Below are positions 121 through 7,930 of a DNA stretch of 64,000 bases, one piece after another. The translations under genes were made by a program, and so were the position numbers. Numbering within the stretch: position 1 is the stretch's first letter; every line of letters begins with the position of its first letter. The stretch is from positions 1 through 64,000 of the forward strand of contig NZ_VORB01000008.1 of NCBI RefSeq assembly GCF_007995015.1, read 5' to 3'. Source of the stretch: Luteibaculum oceani. Lineage in GTDB: Bacteria > Bacteroidota > Bacteroidia > Flavobacteriales_D > Luteibaculaceae. A model generated the notes under the pieces. That model was not told where the DNA came from. It searched no databases and saw nothing but the letters and a program-made list of their open reading frames with translations.

Positions 121-307
121 GGCAACGACCCGGCTATGAATAGTGCGGCTTTAGAGCTATAATGTTTGGCTCTCGCGACACGGTTAGCCGAGGCTTTTAT
201 TTGTGTGGTAAATTACTAAAACCAAGAAGAATAAAAGACGAGGCGGAGGCAAAAGCTAAAATGTGTTCTTAACCGACTAACCCGCATTATTCATAGCCAT
301 TGTTGGC
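121..307. repeat. attC-like palindromic element A (187 bp)
   Basis: The element begins GGCAAC and ends GTTGGC. Its outer arms pair: GGCTATGAATAGTGC near the left end against GCATTATTCATAGCC near the right end. An inner pair is GCTTTTATT against AATAAAAGAC. The exact centre is GGTAAATTACTAAAACC at 207-223, itself a near-palindrome. The whole element could fold as one long hairpin from a single strand. It shares layout, length and centre with the elements at 1044 and 1944. The flanks differ on the two sides and form no target-site duplication. The expected exchange point by analogy with integrons is G302|T303. Confidence 0.8.
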
Positions 308-317
308 AAGCGTAATT

Positions 318-611
318 TTAAATCTCGATGTTTATAGAGACTTTACCACCTAGGCCTTTTTCAACGATATCGTAGAGCGTTTTTAATGTGATGTTGCTGC
401 CATCATTCTCAACTCGGGAGATGTATGTCCTTTTTTTATCAATGATTTCAGCAAGCTGTTTTTGTGTGAGGTGCTTTTCTTCTCTAGCCTGTCTTAATAA
501 ATAACCGATTCGAAATGTTTGAGCACTTCTTTCCAGGTCATCTCTTCTGGGAGTTCCCTTTTTCCCATAAACCTCATCTTTAATTTGGTCCCATGATTTA
601 GTCTTTCCCAT
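318..611 (-). CDS. XRE-family antitoxin (HigA-like), cassette 1
   Basis: This is a 97-residue DNA-binding protein, predicted to neutralise the toxin encoded just upstream and to repress the pair. A helix-turn-helix of the XRE/Cro type occupies roughly residues 35-90, with the motif LTQKQLAEIIDKKRTYISRVEN. The N-terminal 30 residues are charged and probably form the toxin-binding arm. The toxin is read first and overlaps this gene by 14 bp, which is the HigB-HigA gene order. Both lie between palindromic elements A and B. Its relative at 1243-1527 has the same layout (MGK start, YGKKGT/YGKEGS stretch), so the two cassettes carry related antitoxins. The partner match is inferred from order and family, not shown. 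Confidence 0.85.
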   Translation of the reverse strand: MGKTKSWDQIKDEVYGKKGTPRRDDLERSAQTFRIGYLLRQAREEKHLTQKQLAEIIDKKRTYISRVENDGSNITLKTLYDIVEKGLGGKVSINIEI

Positions 612-951
612 CTTTTTTCTCTTTTAAATACTGCAACATTAATTTCTTGGCTTTTTCGATTTCCTTCTTGGGTGTTTTCTGTGATTTCTTTTGAAATCCG
701 TTAAGAAGGATGACAAGCTTGTTTCCATCAAAAAAGCAGAACACTCTCCAGATGTTGGATCCAAGTTTAATGCGTCCCTCAAAAAGGCCTTTTACTCCAG
801 TTATGCTTTTAAGATGGTTAGAAGGAATACGTTCAATGGTTTCTAACATCTCAATTAACTTAAAGACTTTGTTTTGGGTCTTTTGGTCCAAAGAGTTTAG
901 GAACTTTTCGAAGTGTCCTTCGTATGATGTAACCGATCTTATTTTGTCCAA
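598..951 (-). CDS. RelE/HigB-type toxin, cassette 1
   Basis: This predicted mRNA-interferase toxin of the RelE/ParE superfamily has about 117 residues. The motif GSNIWRVFCFFDGNKLVILLNGFQKKSQKTP is split here for clarity: GSNIWRVFCFFD, then LLNGFQKKSQKTP, then a lysine-rich C-terminal helix. These are typical of phage-derived Gp49-like/HigB toxins of Bacteroidota. The open frame extends to an ATG-type start at 1035, but I prefer the TTG at 951. A good promoter and palindromic operator lie at 973-1004, inside the longer frame, so the extra 28 residues would precede transcription. It overlaps the antitoxin gene at its 3' end. Toxicity and target are inferred from the family. Confidence 0.8.
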   Translation of the reverse strand: MDKIRSVTSYEGHFEKFLNSLDQKTQNKVFKLIEMLETIERIPSNHLKSITGVKGLFEGRIKLGSNIWRVFCFFDGNKLVILLNGFQKKSQKTPKKEIEKAKKLMLQYLKEKKDGKD

Positions 952-972
952 ACTGGTTCGATTATTTAACGA

Positions 973-1004
973 CAAAGGTAACTTAAAAGTTACTTGAAAC
1001 GCAA
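973..1004 (-). promoter_or_regulatory. promoter with palindromic operator of toxin-antitoxin pair 1
   Basis: On the minus strand TACCTTTG (980-973) matches the Bacteroidota -7 consensus TAnnTTTG exactly. A TTG at 1004-1002 sits 21 bp upstream. The perfect palindrome GTAACTT-AA-AAGTTAC at 978-993 overlaps the -7 element and is the likely antitoxin operator. The operator outline GTAAC-N6-GTTAC recurs in the same place in cassette 2. Confidence 0.7.
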
Positions 1005-1043
1005 GAAAATCTTTGGGGATTAGGGCAGAGCGCAATTATGCTT

Positions 1044-1229
1044 GCCAACGGCTCGCCTATGAATAGTGCACTCCGTAGCTCTAAAATTTAGATGCTGGCG
1101 ATACACTTAGCCGAGACTTTTGTTTGAGTGGTAAATTAGTAAAACCGCGTAAAAGAAAAGGGGAGGCGGAAGTGCGGGCGAAACCATTTAAGAACCGATT
1201 AAGCCGCATTATTTATAGGCATTGTTGGC
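1044..1229. repeat. attC-like palindromic element B (186 bp)
   Basis: The element begins GCCAAC and ends GTTGGC. Outer arms are GCCTATGAATAGTGC and GCATTATTTATAGGC. The centre GGTAAATTAGTAAAACC at 1130-1146 matches the centre of element A in 16 of 17 bases. The left flank GCTT complements the right flank of element A. The right flank ACTA complements the left flank of element C. Pairing of flanks therefore runs across the gene packets, not across the element. The expected exchange point is G1224|T1225. Confidence 0.82.
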
Positions 1230-1242
1230 ACTAGTACTTTAT

Positions 1243-1527
1243 TTATTCTGGATTAATCTGAATAGAGAGTCCAAGAGCTTTAGCTAACAAAGCAAAATTT
1301 GATAGTCTAATGTCTTCACCATTTTCTATTCGAGAAATGTAAGGTCGTTTTTTACCCACTTTTTCAGCGAGATCTTCTTGACTCAAATGGAGTTCCTTTC
1401 GTCTGTTACGAATGATTTCTCCGAAGTAATATGAAAAGGCGTCTTCAGTGAATTTCTCTCGTGATTCTGAACCTTCTTTTCCGTACCTCTTATCCAAAAG
1501 TTCCTTGGCGTTGAATGCTTTACCCAT
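1243..1527 (-). CDS. XRE-family antitoxin, cassette 2
   Basis: This 94-residue helix-turn-helix protein is predicted to be the antitoxin and autorepressor of cassette 2. The XRE domain spans about residues 36-90, with LSQEDLAEKVGKKRPYISRI as its core. The N-terminus (MGKAFNAKELLDKRYGKEG) parallels that of the antitoxin in cassette 1. It overlaps the upstream toxin frame by 8 bp. The two proteins appear homologous but clearly diverged, so cassettes 1 and 2 are not a recent duplication. Confidence 0.85.
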   Translation of the reverse strand: MGKAFNAKELLDKRYGKEGSESREKFTEDAFSYYFGEIIRNRRKELHLSQEDLAEKVGKKRPYISRIENGEDIRLSNFALLAKALGLSIQINPE

Positions 1528-1867
1528 TTTCTTTACGATTTAAATATTCCTCTAAAATTTTTTCTGCAGCTTTAATTGCCTTTTTATAATCCTTGGTGGA
1601 CTTTTTTATAAACCCAGTTAAACAGACCACCTGGTTAGCTTGAGAGAAGTTTAAATGATCAATTGCAAATATGATAATACGGTATTCATTTCCAGCTTTT
1701 ACTCGGAGTTCATAGAATTTGGTGGATTGCAACTTCTTAATGAACAAAGCGTGCACCACTTTCTCTTGCATCATCACTTGCACAAGCTGAAAAAATTTTA
1801 ATGAAACCCTTTCACCTTGTTTGTCGATAAACTCTAAGCATTCTTCCGTAATATCAACATCTCTCAC
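1520..1867 (-). CDS. RelE/HigB-type toxin, cassette 2
   Basis: This 115-residue predicted toxin belongs to the phage-derived Gp49-like/HigB group. Key stretches are FYELRVKAGNEYRIIIFAID, then VVCLTGFIKKSTKDYKKAI near the C-terminus. The start is GTG at 1867, and no alternative upstream start exists before the promoter. TACATTTG ends at 1872, only four bases before the GTG, so the message is probably leaderless or nearly so. Toxin-first order and overlap with the antitoxin are as in cassette 1. Confidence 0.8.
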   Translation of the reverse strand: MRDVDITEECLEFIDKQGERVSLKFFQLVQVMMQEKVVHALFIKKLQSTKFYELRVKAGNEYRIIIFAIDHLNFSQANQVVCLTGFIKKSTKDYKKAIKAAEKILEEYLNRKENG

Positions 1868-1871
1868 GGTA

Positions 1872-1892
1872 CAAATGTAACGAATTAGTTAC
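1872..1892 (-). promoter_or_regulatory. promoter and operator of toxin-antitoxin pair 2
   Basis: Minus-strand TACATTTG (1879-1872) matches TAnnTTTG exactly. The inverted repeat GTAAC-GAATTA-GTTAC at 1877-1892 overlaps it. Its arms and spacing are the same as in the operator of cassette 1. No clear -33 TTG is seen at the usual distance. Confidence 0.6.
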
Positions 1893-1943
1893 GAAAAAGG
1901 TTTAAGAATCTAGCAAAAAATAGTAGGGAGAACGAGTATTAGT

Positions 1944-2135
1944 GCCAACGGCTTGGCTATAATTTAGTGCGGGTGGATCGGGCTTTGTCCGATCATGCCG
2001 CACGGAAGCTAGCAAGCCTTTTATTTAGGTAGGTAAATTAAATAAAACCGAGAGAAATAAAAGGAGAAGCGGAGGCGAGGGCGAAAATGTGTTCTGTCAA
2101 CGGTTAACTCCGCATTAATTATAGCCTTTGTTGTG
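1944..2135. repeat. attC-like palindromic element C (192 bp)
   Basis: The element begins GCCAAC and ends GTTGTG. Outer arms are GGCTATAATTTAGTGC and GCATTAATTATAGCC. The centre GGTAAATTAAATAAAACC at 2032-2049 sits in the middle of the element. Its inner portion is more diverged than in A and B and includes an extra local hairpin, ATCGGGCTTTGTCCGAT. The expected exchange point is G2130|T2131. The sequence after it, TTGTGTGC, is repeated inverted at 2916-2924 beyond the genes. Confidence 0.8.
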
Positions 2136-2147
2136 TGCTGGCCGTCT

Positions 2148-2582
2148 TTAAATTAATTGTCTTTCAACGTGTTTTTCTAATTCCTTTTGCTTGAAATCAA
2201 ACCAGTCTTGCCTAAAGTCCGAATGATCAACTAGATGTTTAAAGTGACGGAAAGGTTTTCTTTTTGATAAAGCTTCTATTAATCGATTCTTAAATAACCC
2301 TTCATTTAGTTGATAAGCGAAGTTTTCCATGATTTCAAAGGATTCCCAGGATTCAAGTGGGGTAATGCACTGAAATTCGGGATCTTCTACTTTCTCTATT
2401 TCCTCACCTAAAAATTCTTTAAACTCTTCTTCCTCATAGTGATCGTTGAAATTAGGGATGCAAATTAATTCCTCGGATTTAGGATTGTAATAGGCCTTAT
2501 TTCCGCAGTCAATTTGCTGAGCAATTTCATTTAATATTTCTGGTTTAATCTTAGCCAAAGAAACAACCGAGTTTATCTTCAT
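2148..2582 (-). CDS. UPF0158 family protein, cassette 3
   Basis: This 144-residue acidic protein matches my recollection of UPF0158, a small family of unknown function common in accessory DNA. Recognisable parts are the N-terminal region of about 45 residues with YYNPKSEELICIP, an acidic middle, and the C-terminal RPFRHFKHLVDHSDFRQDW followed by FDFKQKELEKHV. I start it at the ATG at 2582. A TTG four codons upstream at 2594 is possible. It overlaps the end of the DUF3024 gene by 32 bp, so the two are probably translated together. No catalytic residues can be pointed to. Confidence 0.7.
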   Translation of the reverse strand: MKINSVVSLAKIKPEILNEIAQQIDCGNKAYYNPKSEELICIPNFNDHYEEEEFKEFLGEEIEKVEDPEFQCITPLESWESFEIMENFAYQLNEGLFKNRLIEALSKRKPFRHFKHLVDHSDFRQDWFDFKQKELEKHVERQLI

Positions 2583-2895
2583 TAATAATTTCAAGTAGAG
2601 CGCTTAAGTTGTTTGCTTTTGGAAATGGGGAATAGGCCTCCCATTTACCGTTTGCTCTCATCCAGTAGAGATTCCATTCATTTCTGGTTTGGTAATAGCG
2701 CAATCTGGCGAATGGGTAGTTTCTTGTTTTTGATGGGTTAATCCAAATGGGCCTAGTTGTGAATATCTCAAAAGCTTTTCTGTCAAAGGAATATCCGAAA
2801 TCAATCTTTTTTCTCAATTCAGGATCCTGAGGACGTTTGGAGTCAACAAAATCTTGAATTTTTTCTTCATTAATTTCTATAATGTTTCGTTCCAC
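2551..2895 (-). CDS. DUF3024-like protein, cassette 3
   Basis: This 114-residue protein has the look of DUF3024, a small family of unknown function also found in integron cassettes of other bacteria. Visible marks are FEIFTTRPIWINPS, ARLRYYQTRNEWNLYWMRA, and NGKWEAYSPFPKANNL followed by a short helix ending CFFG. The start is GTG at 2895, because an in-frame stop lies four codons upstream. It is the gene nearest the recombinase and reads in the same direction. No promoter was recognised in the 20 bp between it and the core site at 2916-2924. Confidence 0.65.
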   Translation of the reverse strand: MERNIIEINEEKIQDFVDSKRPQDPELRKKIDFGYSFDRKAFEIFTTRPIWINPSKTRNYPFARLRYYQTRNEWNLYWMRANGKWEAYSPFPKANNLSALLEIINEDKLGCFFG

Positions 2896-2915
2896 GGATA
2901 ATGTTCAATTAGCTT

Positions 2916-2951
2916 GCACACAACATATGAGCAACACCAGGTTGCTGATAT
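2916..2951. other. last cassette core plus 27-bp inverted repeat
   Basis: GCACACAAC (2916-2924) complements GTTGTGTGC at 2130-2138 and closes cassette 3. Immediately next to it, ATATGAGCAAC (2925-2935) and GTTGCTGATAT (2941-2951) form arms that match in 10 of 11 positions around a 5-base spacer. The AAC...GTT geometry resembles a simple two-box recombinase site. No full 190-bp palindrome is present here. Confidence 0.5.
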
Positions 2952-3023
2952 TGGTTTTTGTTTTTGTATACCGAAAAGTAAAGAAAACCCCCGGAAAACC
3001 ACGATTAGGGCAATTTAAAATGA

Positions 3024-3070
3024 GAAAATGTGATGATATTTTTTGCAAAAGAAAATGTGATGATATTTTT
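3024..3070. repeat. two direct copies of a 20-mer
   Basis: GAAAATGTGATGATATTTTT occurs at 3024-3043 and at 3051-3070, a 27-bp period. The last 12 bases, GATGATATTTTT, occur a third time at 3272-3283 inside the 3' end of the recombinase gene. These could be accessory recombinase-binding sites. A short chance tandem duplication is the alternative. Confidence 0.6.
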
Positions 3071-3219
3071 CTGGGAGCTATTCAACGTCCTCCAAATTCC
3101 AGATTTTACCAATGAGATAGAAATCGCTTTTACTTATCATCTCCCCTTAAATTGCTTACCGATTCTCCTCTGCTCTGCCCTACTCTACTTTTCCAACTAT
3201 GCCAATTGTGCATAAGCTC

Positions 3220-4353
3220 CTATTCCAATGATTTCTTCCGAAAATTTTCAGTCTTTATGCTATCAAAGGGAGATGATATTTTTAGTAAGGACGATTTGGA
3301 AACATGGGTATAAATGGCAGTTGTGTCTAATTTCTCGTGTCCCAAAAGTTTTTGAATCAATCTCGTATCGGTTCCGCCCTCCATCATGTGGGTTGCAAAG
3401 CTATGTCGCAGTACATGGGGTGTTACCCCTTTTAACCCAGCCAGTTTAGCGGCTCTTTTTACTAACATCCCTACGCTAGACGCCCCATATTGATTTCGAT
3501 TGGGCCCCTCAAAAAGCCAGTAATTAGGGCTATATGCTGCCAGATATTTTGTTAACCCAACAGCCATACGTTCACTTAATATAGATACCCGATCTTTCTT
3601 GCCCTTCCCCCCTTTTATAAATACCTGCATACGGTCAAAGTTTATATCCTCTACCCTTAACCCAATGAGCTCTCCCCTTCTTAATCCTGCTGAATACAGT
3701 AAGGCAATAATACACTGGTGCTTTAAATTGCTGGCAGCCAAAACTAGCCGTATAAGTTCTTTCTGACTGATTACTTTGGGAAGCTTTCGCTCTTTTCTGG
3801 GTCTATCCAAACTATACTTCTTTTTCTCTCGTCCCAAAACATGTTCATAATAAAATTTAATAGCGTTAATAACCTGGTTTTGGGTACTTATGCTAACATT
3901 CTTTTTCTCAATCAGAAAATTTATGTAATCCTTGATTTGATCGTCTGTTATAGATTGTAAGTCAAATTTTCTGTAGAAATGCATAAAACCACGAAACATC
4001 GAGCAGTAGGTTCTTACGGTATTGGCACTATATCGTCTGCGCACCAGTAACTCCCTAAACTCCAAGGGTAAATCCACATCATTAGTATTGTTTATTGCCG
4101 CCCTTTTACCCACGAGGATTGCGGTATTATCTACCGCAACCGTTCCATTAAACGCTCTAATAATCTCCAAATATGATTTTCTAGTGAACGGCAGGTAAAA
4201 ACACTTTTTACCTGAGTGCCAGTTCGCGTTAATCCGCCTTAGCCCACTGTATATGGTTTCGCTGTATTTAAACTGAAATCCTAGATAGCAATTACCATCC
4301 AAATGGATTTTATGTAACCGAAGAACCGGCTTACTTGAATCTTGCTTTTTCAC
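3220..4353 (-). CDS. tyrosine recombinase (integron-integrase-like, no IntI insertion)
   Basis: This 377-residue site-specific recombinase has a full catalytic set: R225 (SAGLRRGEL), K250 (GGKGKKDR), H313 and R316 (TPHVLRHSFATH), H339 (LLGHE) and nucleophile Y348 (AIYTH). The core-binding domain is about residues 95-175, with SANTVRTYCSMFRGFMHFY and VSISTQNQVINAIKFYYEHV resembling the same region of IntI. The tail KISSPFD also recalls IntI. The extra domain that defines IntI between R225 and H313 is absent, and the linker is just YSPNYWLFEGPNRNQYGASS. An added N-terminal domain (about 15-80) contains FKYSETIYSGLRRI, W45 and YLPFT, a pattern reminiscent of HARP domains. The start is GTG. It reads toward the array, not away from it. 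Confidence 0.9.
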   Translation of the reverse strand: MKKQDSSKPVLRLHKIHLDGNCYLGFQFKYSETIYSGLRRINANWHSGKKCFYLPFTRKSYLEIIRAFNGTVAVDNTAILVGKRAAINNTNDVDLPLEFRELLVRRRYSANTVRTYCSMFRGFMHFYRKFDLQSITDDQIKDYINFLIEKKNVSISTQNQVINAIKFYYEHVLGREKKKYSLDRPRKERKLPKVISQKELIRLVLAASNLKHQCIIALLYSAGLRRGELIGLRVEDINFDRMQVFIKGGKGKKDRVSILSERMAVGLTKYLAAYSPNYWLFEGPNRNQYGASSVGMLVKRAAKLAGLKGVTPHVLRHSFATHMMEGGTDTRLIQKLLGHEKLDTTAIYTHVSKSSLLKISSPFDSIKTENFRKKSLE

Positions 4354-4498: not shown

Positions 4499-6589
4499 CT
4501 ACTTAAACAAGTCTGAAGATACGTTTGAGTTCACTTTCACTTCATCCATTTCAATTACTAGACTCTGAGGTCCAGAAATGCTCATTTTGTGTGCGAAAAC
4601 ATATCCTTTAACATCTTTAAAGTCGTCAAAAGACTGTACTGTAGTTACCGCACCGTTTGGCGTTTCAGCTGTTACAATTTCTTGTAGCTTAACTCCTCTT
4701 TCTACGCTGTAAAAATGAGTTGAAGGCTCTCCTACGGTTGCTGTAATCTCAACCACATAAGCATCTTCTCCATTTACAGGCTCCACACCAAGTAAAGTAG
4801 ATTTGTAACCTAGGTTTTGGTACTCTAATTCTGGTACCAATAAGGCCTGTACTTCCATTTTCTTAAGGTCGTCGCCTTCCATTTCTTTACGCCCTTGGAA
4901 AGAAATAGAAACTCCTTTTTTACCATCAAACGTTTGCTTCTGGATTACGTTACCCTGAACCATAATGCTTTGAGAGAATAAATTTGGTGCCTTTTGGTAG
5001 GTAACCATTTTAATTTCATTCCCCTGTATGCTTGCGGTTCCTTTGGTAGTAATATCCTTAAGCTTTTTAATTTTCTTAAGGGCCGACTTCATATCCTCAG
5101 ATTGCGTAAACTTCAACACAAAGTTGTCGAATACATTTTGAGCAGTCATTCCTTCTGGAGCTGGCTTGCGCTCCGTTGCATCTGCCTCGTTTCCGTAGAA
5201 ATCGTAGAAAGTTACTTCTCCGTCAGCATCGAATTTCTCTAGGCTCTTTGCTACATCTTTATTTCCAACTACAATTACCAAAGAATTATTTGGTTTGATG
5301 TACTTCTGTGCCATTTGCTTAACCTCTTCGATAGAAACTGAGCTCAATCTTGCAAGGTAATTTGCGTAGTAATCTTTAGGAAGCTTGTAACGCTCAATGT
5401 TTAAAGCAAAATTGGCTACAGTTTGTGGAGACTCTAAAGCTCTTGCAAAAGAACCGTTCATAGAGTTTTTCACTAGTGAAAGATCGTCTTTAGAAACAGG
5501 CTCTTTTGTTAAGCGGTCTAATTCGTATAAAAACTCGGTAACCGATGAGTCCGTCACTTCATTTCTTACCGAAGCAAATGCAGTAAAAGAACCAACGTAT
5601 TGGTCTGTGCTAAGGCTAGATCTTGCACCATAGGTATAGGCTTTATCCTCTCTAAGGTTTTGCATTAATCTACCGCTAAATACACCACCACCTAAAATGT
5701 TATTCATAACGCTAGATGGGATAGCATCTGGAGCTCCTGGCTTAAGGTCTACTGGATAAGTAACATTAATTACCGACTGCACTGCACCGGTTTTAGGCAC
5801 AAAACAAACCTGAGTTCCTTCGGGTCCTTTTACCTCTGGCATAACTGCCATTGGAACTTCTGCTTGTTGCCAAGCTCCAAAGTACTTCTTCACTTTCTTC
5901 TCAGCCTCGGCCTTAGTAATATCTCCAACAATTACCAGGTATGCAATGTTAGGACGGAAGTAAGTGTTGTAGAACTCCTTACAAGACTCCACGCTTACGT
6001 TAGCAACAGTTTCTTCGGTTTCAATTTCCCCGTATGGGTGATCCTTACCATATCTCAACGCTTTAGAAACGTTTGACATAATCGCGTTAGGATCTTCTTT
6101 TCCAGCCTGGATACCAGAAATGGTTTTCTTTTTCTCTGCTTCTAACTGATCTTTTGGGAAAGTTGGATTCAACAATACATCCGAAACAATTCCAAGTAAC
6201 TTATCAGTGTGCTTGGTAAGTGACGATGCGTAGAATCCAGTAGCGTAGGTACTGAAATTAGCACCAATAAAGTCTATGCTTTTATCGATCTGCTCTTTGT
6301 TTTTGCTTGTGGTACCCGCTCTTAATAAAGATCCGGCTAAAGAAGCATTTCCAGCAATTTCACCCTCCATAAATGGAACGTAATCCAAAGTAAGTGAGTA
6401 AGAGATTACTGGACGCTTATGGTTTTCAACTAAAATTACTTTTAGTCCGTTTTCAAGCGTAAATGTTTCAGATTCCCCAATTTGAATTTTTGGTGCAGGC
6501 CCTGGGGCAGGAGCTTTGCTACGATCTACTTGTGCAAAAACCGAAACGGCAAGGGTTACACAAAAGAACAATATGGATAATTTTTTCAT
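4499..6589 (-). CDS. non-catalytic M16 peptidase-family subunit with LolA-like C-terminal domain
   Basis: This 696-residue exported protein has a signal peptide of about 19 residues ending VFA-Q. Two M16 (pitrilysin/MPP) domains follow, at about residues 40-240 and 240-470. The zinc motif HxxEH is missing: the position where it belongs reads GNASLAGSLLRAG. It is therefore probably the substrate-binding partner of the catalytic M16 protein encoded 21 bp upstream, as in two-subunit M16B peptidases. Residues of about 490-696 form an extra beta-rich domain (STLLGVEPVNGEDAYVVEI, then YSVERGVKLQEI) that resembles LolA/outer-membrane-lipoprotein-sorting folds. That assignment is by general pattern only. 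Likely periplasmic. Confidence 0.85.
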   Translation of the reverse strand: MKKLSILFFCVTLAVSVFAQVDRSKAPAPGPAPKIQIGESETFTLENGLKVILVENHKRPVISYSLTLDYVPFMEGEIAGNASLAGSLLRAGTTSKNKEQIDKSIDFIGANFSTYATGFYASSLTKHTDKLLGIVSDVLLNPTFPKDQLEAEKKKTISGIQAGKEDPNAIMSNVSKALRYGKDHPYGEIETEETVANVSVESCKEFYNTYFRPNIAYLVIVGDITKAEAEKKVKKYFGAWQQAEVPMAVMPEVKGPEGTQVCFVPKTGAVQSVINVTYPVDLKPGAPDAIPSSVMNNILGGGVFSGRLMQNLREDKAYTYGARSSLSTDQYVGSFTAFASVRNEVTDSSVTEFLYELDRLTKEPVSKDDLSLVKNSMNGSFARALESPQTVANFALNIERYKLPKDYYANYLARLSSVSIEEVKQMAQKYIKPNNSLVIVVGNKDVAKSLEKFDADGEVTFYDFYGNEADATERKPAPEGMTAQNVFDNFVLKFTQSEDMKSALKKIKKLKDITTKGTASIQGNEIKMVTYQKAPNLFSQSIMVQGNVIQKQTFDGKKGVSISFQGRKEMEGDDLKKMEVQALLVPELEYQNLGYKSTLLGVEPVNGEDAYVVEITATVGEPSTHFYSVERGVKLQEIVTAETPNGAVTTVQSFDDFKDVKGYVFAHKMSISGPQSLVIEMDEVKVNSNVSSDLFK

Positions 6590-6610
6590 CTCTAAATATT
6601 TATAAAGTGA

Positions 6611-7930
6611 TTAGTTGGCTTTTGGTAAGTAATAAAGTACTACTCTATTCTTAGGAGTTAGGTACTTCTTGGCCACATTTCTAATATCTTCTTTGCTAAC
6701 TTTTAGGTAACGCTGTAACTCGGTATTAATAAGGTTAGCGTCTCCGTAATACGTGTGGTAGTTAGCTAAACTTTCAGCTACCCCCACTACTCTTGAGTTA
6801 CCTGCAACAAATTGTGCTTCAATTTGGTTTTTCACCTTGTTTAGCTCTTCGTCGCTAATTAACTCGCTTTGTAACTTTTTAATTTCCTCGTCTATTACTT
6901 TTTCAGCAGCCATAGGATCTACTCCTGAGTTACAAATAGCAAATGAAAGTGTTAATCCTGGGTGCTCTAATCCAAGTGGGAAAACACCTGTTTGTAATGC
7001 CAATTGCTCCTTATCTACTAATCTTTTGTATAGTCTAGAAGACTGGCCGCTAGAAAGTAGTGTACTTAACATTTCCATTGCATAAGCATCGGCAGTTCCT
7101 TGTGCAGGAGAGTGGTATGCTTGAATTACTGCAGGAAGTTGGATGTTATCGAAAACAGTATCTCTAATCTCTGTAGTTTGAGCTGGCTCGTTAGCCTCTG
7201 GGAAAGGAATGGTCTTGGTTCCTTTTTTGATTTCACCAAAGTACTTCGCAATTAATTTTTTGGTTTCTGGTATGTTGATATCTCCAGCTATAGAAAGTAC
7301 TGCATTGTTAGGAACGTAGAAAGTTTTGTAGAAATCCATAAACTCCTGGTCCGAAGCGGCATTTAGGTGGTCCATAGAACCAATAACCGACCATTTGTAT
7401 GGGTGAACTTTATACGCTCTTTTAAAGGTTTCTTCTAAGATAGAACCGTAAGGAGTGTTATCCATTCTTTGTCTACGCTCCTCTTTAACTACTTCGCGTT
7501 GAGTTTCAATACCAACGTTTTCAACTTTTGCGTGCATCAAACGCTCGCTTTCCAACCAAAGACCTAATTCTAATTGGTTAGACGGTAAAACCTCGTAGTA
7601 AAAAGTACGGTCTTGAGTGGTATTGGCATTTAACACCCCACCGGCATTTTCAATGTACTTATCGAACTCACCACGGCCAATATTTTCTGACCCTTCGAAT
7701 AAAAGGTGCTCAAAAAAGTGCGCCATACCTGTACGGTTTGGATCTTCGTTTTTAGATCCTACATGGTATAACATGGTAATTGCCACTACAGGAGTTGAGT
7801 GGTCTTCGTGAAGAATTACGTGGAGACCATTGGGTAGGTCGTATTCCACAAAGTCAATCTTTTTAGCTTGCGAAAAGCCCACCAAGGTGCTTAGCATCGC
7901 AAGAGCAAGACATAGATGCTTTTTATACAT
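6611..7930 (-). CDS. zinc-dependent M16 peptidase
   Basis: This 439-residue exported M16B metallopeptidase has a signal peptide ending near residue 22 (STLVGFSQA). Zinc ligands and catalytic residue are visible: H71, E74 and H75 in HFFEHLLFEG, with the third ligand near E150/E151 in VVKEERRQR. The C-terminal M16 domain follows from about residue 200 (VLSIAGDINIPETKKL). It should degrade peptides in the periplasm together with the non-catalytic subunit downstream, with which it forms a two-gene operon. A promoter and a long inverted repeat lie just upstream. Confidence 0.92.
   Translation of the reverse strand: MYKKHLCLALAMLSTLVGFSQAKKIDFVEYDLPNGLHVILHEDHSTPVVAITMLYHVGSKNEDPNRTGMAHFFEHLLFEGSENIGRGEFDKYIENAGGVLNANTTQDRTFYYEVLPSNQLELGLWLESERLMHAKVENVGIETQREVVKEERRQRMDNTPYGSILEETFKRAYKVHPYKWSVIGSMDHLNAASDQEFMDFYKTFYVPNNAVLSIAGDINIPETKKLIAKYFGEIKKGTKTIPFPEANEPAQTTEIRDTVFDNIQLPAVIQAYHSPAQGTADAYAMEMLSTLLSSGQSSRLYKRLVDKEQLALQTGVFPLGLEHPGLTLSFAICNSGVDPMAAEKVIDEEIKKLQSELISDEELNKVKNQIEAQFVAGNSRVVGVAESLANYHTYYGDANLINTELQRYLKVSKEDIRNVAKKYLTPKNRVVLYYLPKAN

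Follow-up and report, generated by a model that had tools for sequence, protein, structure and literature searches.

The window, by which we mean the whole stretch of DNA analysed (64,000 nucleotides, positions 1 to 64,000 of contig NZ_VORB01000008.1 of Luteibaculum oceani), carries near its first base a tyrosine recombinase gene, an attI-like junction and co-directional cassettes, each with its own ORFs and one attC-like site. The recombinase gene, the cassette ORFs and the array all have minus-strand orientation, with the array positioned behind the gene's 3' end. It is made of three cassettes with two ORFs and one palindrome (about 180-186 nt) apiece, and it runs to the contig end at base 1. 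By window position, the features are:

3220..4353, minus strand: recombinase gene, 377 amino acids, GTG start, a tyrosine recombinase of the XerA/IntI type
4114..4326, minus strand: added N-terminal domain, residues 10-80, with a HARP / XPB-DRD-like predicted fold (AlphaFold2 and VIA-align; Pfam HARP in homologues)
3826..4062, minus strand: core-binding (SAM-like) domain, residues 98-176 (Pfam Phage_int_SAM_4, PF13495, E=2.5e-18)
3295..3774, minus strand: catalytic domain, residues 194-353 (Pfam Phage_integrase, PF00589, E=2.7e-36)
2924..3219, minus strand: attI-like region, from the recombinase stop to the first cassette, placed by comparison with 15 other loci
1949..2923, minus strand: cassette A, with a hypothetical protein (2148-2594), a DUF3024 protein (2551-2895) and element 1
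1947..2132, minus strand: attC-like element 1, from AAC at 2132-2130 to GTT at 1949-1947
1049..1948, minus strand: cassette B, with a RelE/ParE-like (Gp49) protein (1520-1867), an HTH antitoxin (1243-1527; both by Pfam) and element 2
1047..1226, minus strand: attC-like element 2, a palindrome
126..1048, minus strand: cassette C, with a RelE/ParE-like (Gp49) protein (598-1035), an HTH antitoxin (318-611; both by Pfam) and element 3
124..304, minus strand: attC-like element 3, a palindrome

Upstream of the recombinase, on the same strand, lie two genes (4499-7930) that we take to be M16-type peptidases. The first cassette begins after the G at 2924, and its start is abutted by an imperfect palindrome (2925-2951; 20 of 27 positions matching) that is not outstanding, since 12 of 200 shuffles were as good. 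AGAAAATGTGATGATATTTTT occurs twice in direct orientation at 3023-3070, between the recombinase stop and this cassette, and a 76 percent match to it sits at 3263-3283, within the final part of the recombinase gene; these could be binding sites of the attI region. The arms belonging to cassette A itself read TTGTGTGC and GCACACAA, and the own-cassette arms of cassettes B and C match at 7 of 8 bases in each case. In element 2 the plus (bottom) strand folds better than the top strand (z -2.25 vs -0.36). By Pfam, the cargo consists of toxin-antitoxin pairs and a DUF3024 protein, with one ORF giving no match; Rfam returned nothing relevant for the array. A lone partial copy of the window palindrome lies far from the array, on another contig of the window's own genome (G000; the window is on C8) at G000:C7:48905-49028 (L159:6906-7029), outside any chain and near a gene pair that is presumably ParD/ParE-like.

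The recombinase had been described, in an initial annotation made from the sequence, as having a complete set of tyrosine-recombinase residues, an IntI-like core and no IntI insertion, and each of these points held. The protein has R225, K250, H313, R316, H339 and Y348, and none of these residues varies across a 23-row alignment (A1). Against NCBIfam profiles the protein scores just over the cut-off of XerA_Arch (224 bits vs 220) and under that of the integron integrase TIGR02249 (210 bits vs 265). Its PDB sequence matches are archaeal Xer (4a8e, 5hxy) and IntI (2a3v). An AlphaFold2 model built from 28 sequences has a mean pLDDT of 87, and its core aligns with 4a8e (VIA Z 23.3, rmsd 9.5) and with 2a3v (Z 20.1, rmsd 3.0).

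The IntI class is defined by an additional (I2) domain, and the window recombinase lacks it. The TIGR02249 match in its own genome covers model positions 4-180 and 243-314 and skips about 62 positions (181-242). From R225 to H313 the spacing is 88 residues; of the 17 rows in the IntI group, 16 have an Arg-His spacing of 131-132 (L099 has 112). Entries with a detected N-terminal domain, a set of 58 that includes repeat entries of the window protein, have a spacing of 88-91 in 55 cases; the other three have 94, 22 and none. In the tree all IntI rows fall into a single clade (SH-aLRT 100). The window protein belongs to a Bacteroidota clade of 47 rows, set apart from both IntI and Xer with a support of 93 (under the 95 mark, in a quick tree). 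The tree holds 88 rows, other loci having been dropped by hand as repeats, fragments or near-copies or because the catalytic motif was missing; L049 and L051, both missed by the HMM, were hand-labelled as members with the N-terminal domain. Just two phage records match the protein, and its place in the tree is elsewhere than among phage or transposon integrases.

A scan with alignment A1 gave 80 loci, which we supplemented with the stretches around 34 further homologue sites from genomes of the same order. The gene is followed by repeats in Rufibacter, Mediterranea, Flavobacterium enshiense, Algibacter, Seonamhaeicola and others. An ungapped hairpin search missed most elements because their stems hold bulges, and it was replaced by self-BLAST and then by a chain detector that knows just the arm rule and the stem. 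This detector was run on loci with at least 5 kb downstream. Among the 38 Bacteroidota-type loci, a set from which eight non-Bacteroidota loci had been excluded by hand, 16 had at least three chained co-directional elements downstream of the gene (13 of 29 with the N-terminal domain and 3 of 9 without it, by HMM). Chains of this length were found in 0/38 loci in the opposite orientation, 0/13 upstream, 2/190 shuffles and 0/29 other loci downstream. Canonical IntI arrays were detected on the expected divergent/upstream side (L080, L099, L101). The detector is conservative, since it missed the array of L049 (chain of 1) that other evidence shows. One of the 16 loci, L128, has a chain of three that one of its own shuffles also reached; it is outside the set of 92 elements used below. 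The association of the recombinase with folded palindromic cassette sites, first noticed in the window, is supported.

Arrays vary greatly in extent. In G002 one unbroken chain of 21 elements covers 25 kb directly behind the gene, and in the complete genome G105 chained stretches reach up to about 99 kb behind it. The G105 region (C1:4182000-4320000) has four chained stretches over some 100-130 kb behind the recombinase, and its ORFs of at least 80 aa are almost all on the recombinase strand (115 minus, 13 plus; L172-L178); this is possibly a very large chromosomal array. Elements span about 41 to 190 nt across loci, so long hairpins, as proposed from the window, are not found in every case. 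The ends of contigs also pile up behind the gene, as repeats there would cause: a contig ends within 500 bases of the gene's 3' end in 18/66 minus-strand copies, and within 500 bases on the 5' side in 0/74 plus-strand copies (the window's own row and another five identical copies from G180 are not in this count). A plasmid of Rufibacter tibetensis (MOBB; L161:11671-18871) carries a copy of the recombinase with a chain of four elements behind it, which indicates that the system can travel. Contigs C1 and C2 of G180 together hold roughly twelve nearly identical copies of a relative of the recombinase (300 aa) that lacks the N-terminal domain, as if this relative were itself a transposon or insertion element.

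In 22 of the 38 loci with at least 5 kb downstream no chain of at least three was detected, and Persicobacter L163 has no array. The count of 16/38 led us to reject the view that every homologue has an array.

Co-occurrence was measured with a covariance model of one element subtype (built from 19 sequences), which was searched against 299 genomes. Elements of this subtype were found in 64 of them. They occur in 39 of the 126 genomes that have the gene at 1e-40, compared with 25 of the 173 that lack such a match (odds ratio 2.65, p 0.0009). The link between element and gene is real but loose, and some homologues do occur without the elements. Five stretches in the element-only genomes G014, G016, G032 and G044 had no chain longer than one.

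The element-only genomes, together with the orphan element in contig C7 of G000, are what one would expect if the cassettes were moved by another integrase (a canonical IntI acting in trans, or one since lost) and the adjacent recombinase were unrelated to them. We regard this as highly improbable: no integrase above the IntI cut-off was found in the window's own genome or in eight array-bearing genomes, the first cassette lies directly behind the gene in 16/19 loci, and arrays occur on one side of the gene only.

Over 51 adjacent pairs in 8 arrays, the two arms of the same cassette match at a mean of 6.12 of the 8 bases outside the core. The two arms of a single element match at 3.14 (n=59), and the remaining pairs at 2.97 (n=441); none of 20,000 permutations gave as high a within-cassette match. 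Cores for this count were placed from alignments, free of detector selection, and the 3' core of L047 was re-picked. The left arm of each palindrome therefore has its partner at the start of the same cassette, so that, as in integrons, only the circular form contains a whole site.

Folding was computed on 92 circularised elements, a set in which arm positions 3-10 are not independent evidence because the detector selects matches there. The bottom strand is the more stable one in 90/92 elements and in the mean at 16/16 loci, with an average advantage of 4.4 kcal/mol in computed folds. It contains more G.T pairs (4.27, vs 1.12 in the top-strand fold), and position 10 outside the core is C.A on the top and G.T on the bottom strand in 63/92 elements, although the detector favours a match there. 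For canonical elements the bottom strand is better in 8/11, by 2.1 kcal/mol. The inner stem shows covariation, with two-sided changes in 7/14 pairs and a score of 0.385 (0.087 when shuffled, reached in 0/500; slid controls 0.016-0.087). Within 16 nt inside the first loop, 59/92 elements have no one-sided bulge, vs 1/11 canonical ones (Fisher p 0.0006, with a small control and computed folds). Such a scarcity in the modelled stems would fit an enzyme without the helix that docks these bases.

On the attI side, the distance from the recombinase stop to the start of the first cassette is 41-295 nt in 16/19 loci; in L073 the first core was found at 300 nt, and L124 and L131 showed no core near the stop. 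In Mediterranea L049 the attC cores end in A and the attI junction reads G, which places the exchange 3' of that base. Near-perfect dif-like palindromes of 21-24 bp, reached by none of 200 shuffles, are present in five of the 15 attI stretches (L038, L045, L139, L142, L143).

These palindromes suit a different account of the enzyme, in which it works on double-stranded attC as an ordinary Xer recombinase and the hairpins are incidental or regulatory. Mobilisation of pdif modules by XerCD provides a model for this. The lack of the I2 helix is in line with it too, as Xer enzymes are described in excerpts of PMC4792948 and PMC7790495 as being without I2-like adaptations to single-strand substrates. 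Such an account leaves unexplained why one strand should be kept foldable, which brings nothing to a double-stranded site; the bias in 90/92 elements, the conserved C.A mismatch and the covarying inner stem all weigh against it, and we consider it unlikely.

We find it probable, and by a wide margin the more so, that the locus is an integron-type cassette system whose recombinase lacks I2 and acts on folded attC. On this reading, the recombinase would insert and excise circular cassettes at attI and between attC sites. Its substrate would be the folded bottom strand of attC, with the cut immediately 3' of the G (or A) in the core (G^TT). This strand is favoured because its stem forms G.T wobbles at positions that are C.A mismatches in the top strand. 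More tentatively, in most members the HARP/XPB-DRD-like domain might help to grip the hairpin or its base. Cassette recombination would then, apparently, run without the I2 helix, which is held in an excerpt of PMC7790495 (eLife 2020) to be necessary for cassette capture and present in no other protein.

The added N-terminal domain is modelled with confidence (pLDDT about 95 for residues 10-75, alone or within the whole protein) in the order strand-strand-helix-strand-strand-helix-strand, and W45 and the YLP motif are where the initial annotation had placed them. In the VIA comparison the seven top rows are all the N-terminal damage-recognition domain of archaeal XPB, the best being 6p66_A (Z 6.6, rmsd 1.9 over 58 residues); the HARP domain of SMARCAL1 (4o66_C) follows with Z 4.0 and rmsd 3.2 over 52 residues. 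Both Z values are below 8, a range that can mean merely a common arrangement, and sequence identity to these structures is about 12 percent. Pfam HARP (PF07443, gathering score 25) does not match the window protein; its cut-off is passed by two of ten scanned homologues (L058 at 29.0, L064 at 26.2), and it matches 4/24 domain rows at E <=0.1. A profile of the domain (A3) gave no useful E-value against PDB sequences (4o66 at E 0.62), and Foldseek with the N-terminal model returned nothing at E <0.1, its weak matches being mostly HIV integrase cores. The HARP likeness proposed earlier would amount to a probably related fold, with XPB-DRD the better and SMARCAL1 HARP the weaker match, and not to Pfam HARP membership of the window protein itself. 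In SMARCAL1 and archaeal XPB these modules are fused to helicases, whereas here the domain is fused to a tyrosine recombinase. The recombinases L062, L064 and L056, whose records carry the labels Firmicutes, Spirochaetota and Undinarchaeales, also have a HARP-like N-terminal domain.

HARP and XPB-DRD modules bind single/double-strand junctions, and the initial annotation had suggested that the added domain may replace the IntI insertion. A strict replacement was rejected: L142, L143 and L146 have neither I2 nor the N-terminal domain and are nevertheless followed by arrays, with 7, 4 and 5 chained elements, respectively. These three loci, like the weak fold scores and the empty Foldseek search, are also in keeping with another role for the domain (a multimer contact, binding of a partner protein, or an arm site on double-stranded DNA) in place of hairpin reading. 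Arm-binding domains of phage and ICE integrases are a model for the last of these. Pulling the other way are the seven best fold rows, all from the XPB damage-recognition domain, with SMARCAL1 HARP listed too, the two homologues that pass Pfam HARP, and the two or three copies of the domain in some homologues (L010, L017, L042, L058). We see the two possibilities as almost balanced, with another role slightly the less probable; it would alter one step of the integron-type explanation and leave the rest in place.

Set beside integrons, the system shares the cassette logic. The array holds several palindromic attC-like sites with RYYYAAC...GTTRRRY-like cores, whole only in the circular form (the 0/20,000 permutations above), and computed folds make the bottom strand the better folder. 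By position and junction attI adjoins the recombinase gene (in the window by analogy), and the cassettes carry co-oriented, mostly unknown ORFs and toxin-antitoxin pairs. It differs in the recombinase, which has no I2 and in most members has the HARP/XPB-DRD-like domain, in the place of attI behind the gene's 3' end with the array in the same direction as the gene, and in having fewer one-sided stem bulges. Since it looks integron-like on each sequence-level test made, yet fails the test that defines the IntI class, it is best filed as a variant.

XerA and archaeal Xer are the closest relatives by profile and fold (5hxy, 4a8e), with a similar Arg-His spacing, and differ in having no added N-terminal domain. 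They are housekeeping recombinases, and we know of no cassette arrays associated with them.

A further comparison is with the recombinase-associated acquired interbacterial defence (rAID) loci of gut Bacteroidales, in which a tyrosine recombinase is accompanied by short genes that share one orientation and have conserved motifs between them (PMC12247911, a preprint, in excerpt). The window has the same layout: its recombinase is followed by short genes in a single orientation, again with conserved motifs in the intergenic stretches. Its cargo is different, being toxin-antitoxin pairs and DUF3024, and Pfam detected no orphan T6SS immunity gene among the cassette ORFs. In Parabacteroides distasonis (L160) the recombinase is followed by Tdi1 and SMI1/KNR4 immunity genes; the plasmid label of this record is doubtful, given chromosome-like genes such as rpe. 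Because cargo in gut Bacteroidales includes T6SS immunity genes, the system there is the same as, or sister to, the rAID loci, and in these bacteria it coincides with known rAID defence loci. Among the titles and abstract openings covered by our literature search, a set without Ross et al. 2019 (reportedly the founding rAID paper), no I2-less integron or HARP-bearing recombinase was described.

A wider reading, which we hold to be quite possible though just short of probable, is that a second class of integron exists across the Bacteroidota. It would use I2-free single-strand recombination, with the strand set by G.T wobbles and the hairpin gripped by a HARP/XPB-DRD-like domain; rAID would be a specialised branch, and the class either an independent invention or a relic from before I2. 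Integrons have been reported in the Bacteroidota (PMC8618304, in excerpt), and the IntegronFinder 2.0 paper, in excerpt, describes earlier Bacteroidota cases as integrase-only and reports a complete one in Salinibacter ruber (PMC9024848). A system of this kind could explain why searches that rely on IntI find few integrons in this phylum (PMC9024848). It also offers a mechanism for the acquisition of immunity genes by rAID islands, the formation of which is, in the excerpt of PMC12247911 (where integrons are not mentioned), not yet clear. A lineage with attC arrays and no I2 makes the claim of PMC7790495, as excerpted, that I2 is necessary directly testable. Ultimately, gene capture through folded DNA may take more than one form in bacteria.
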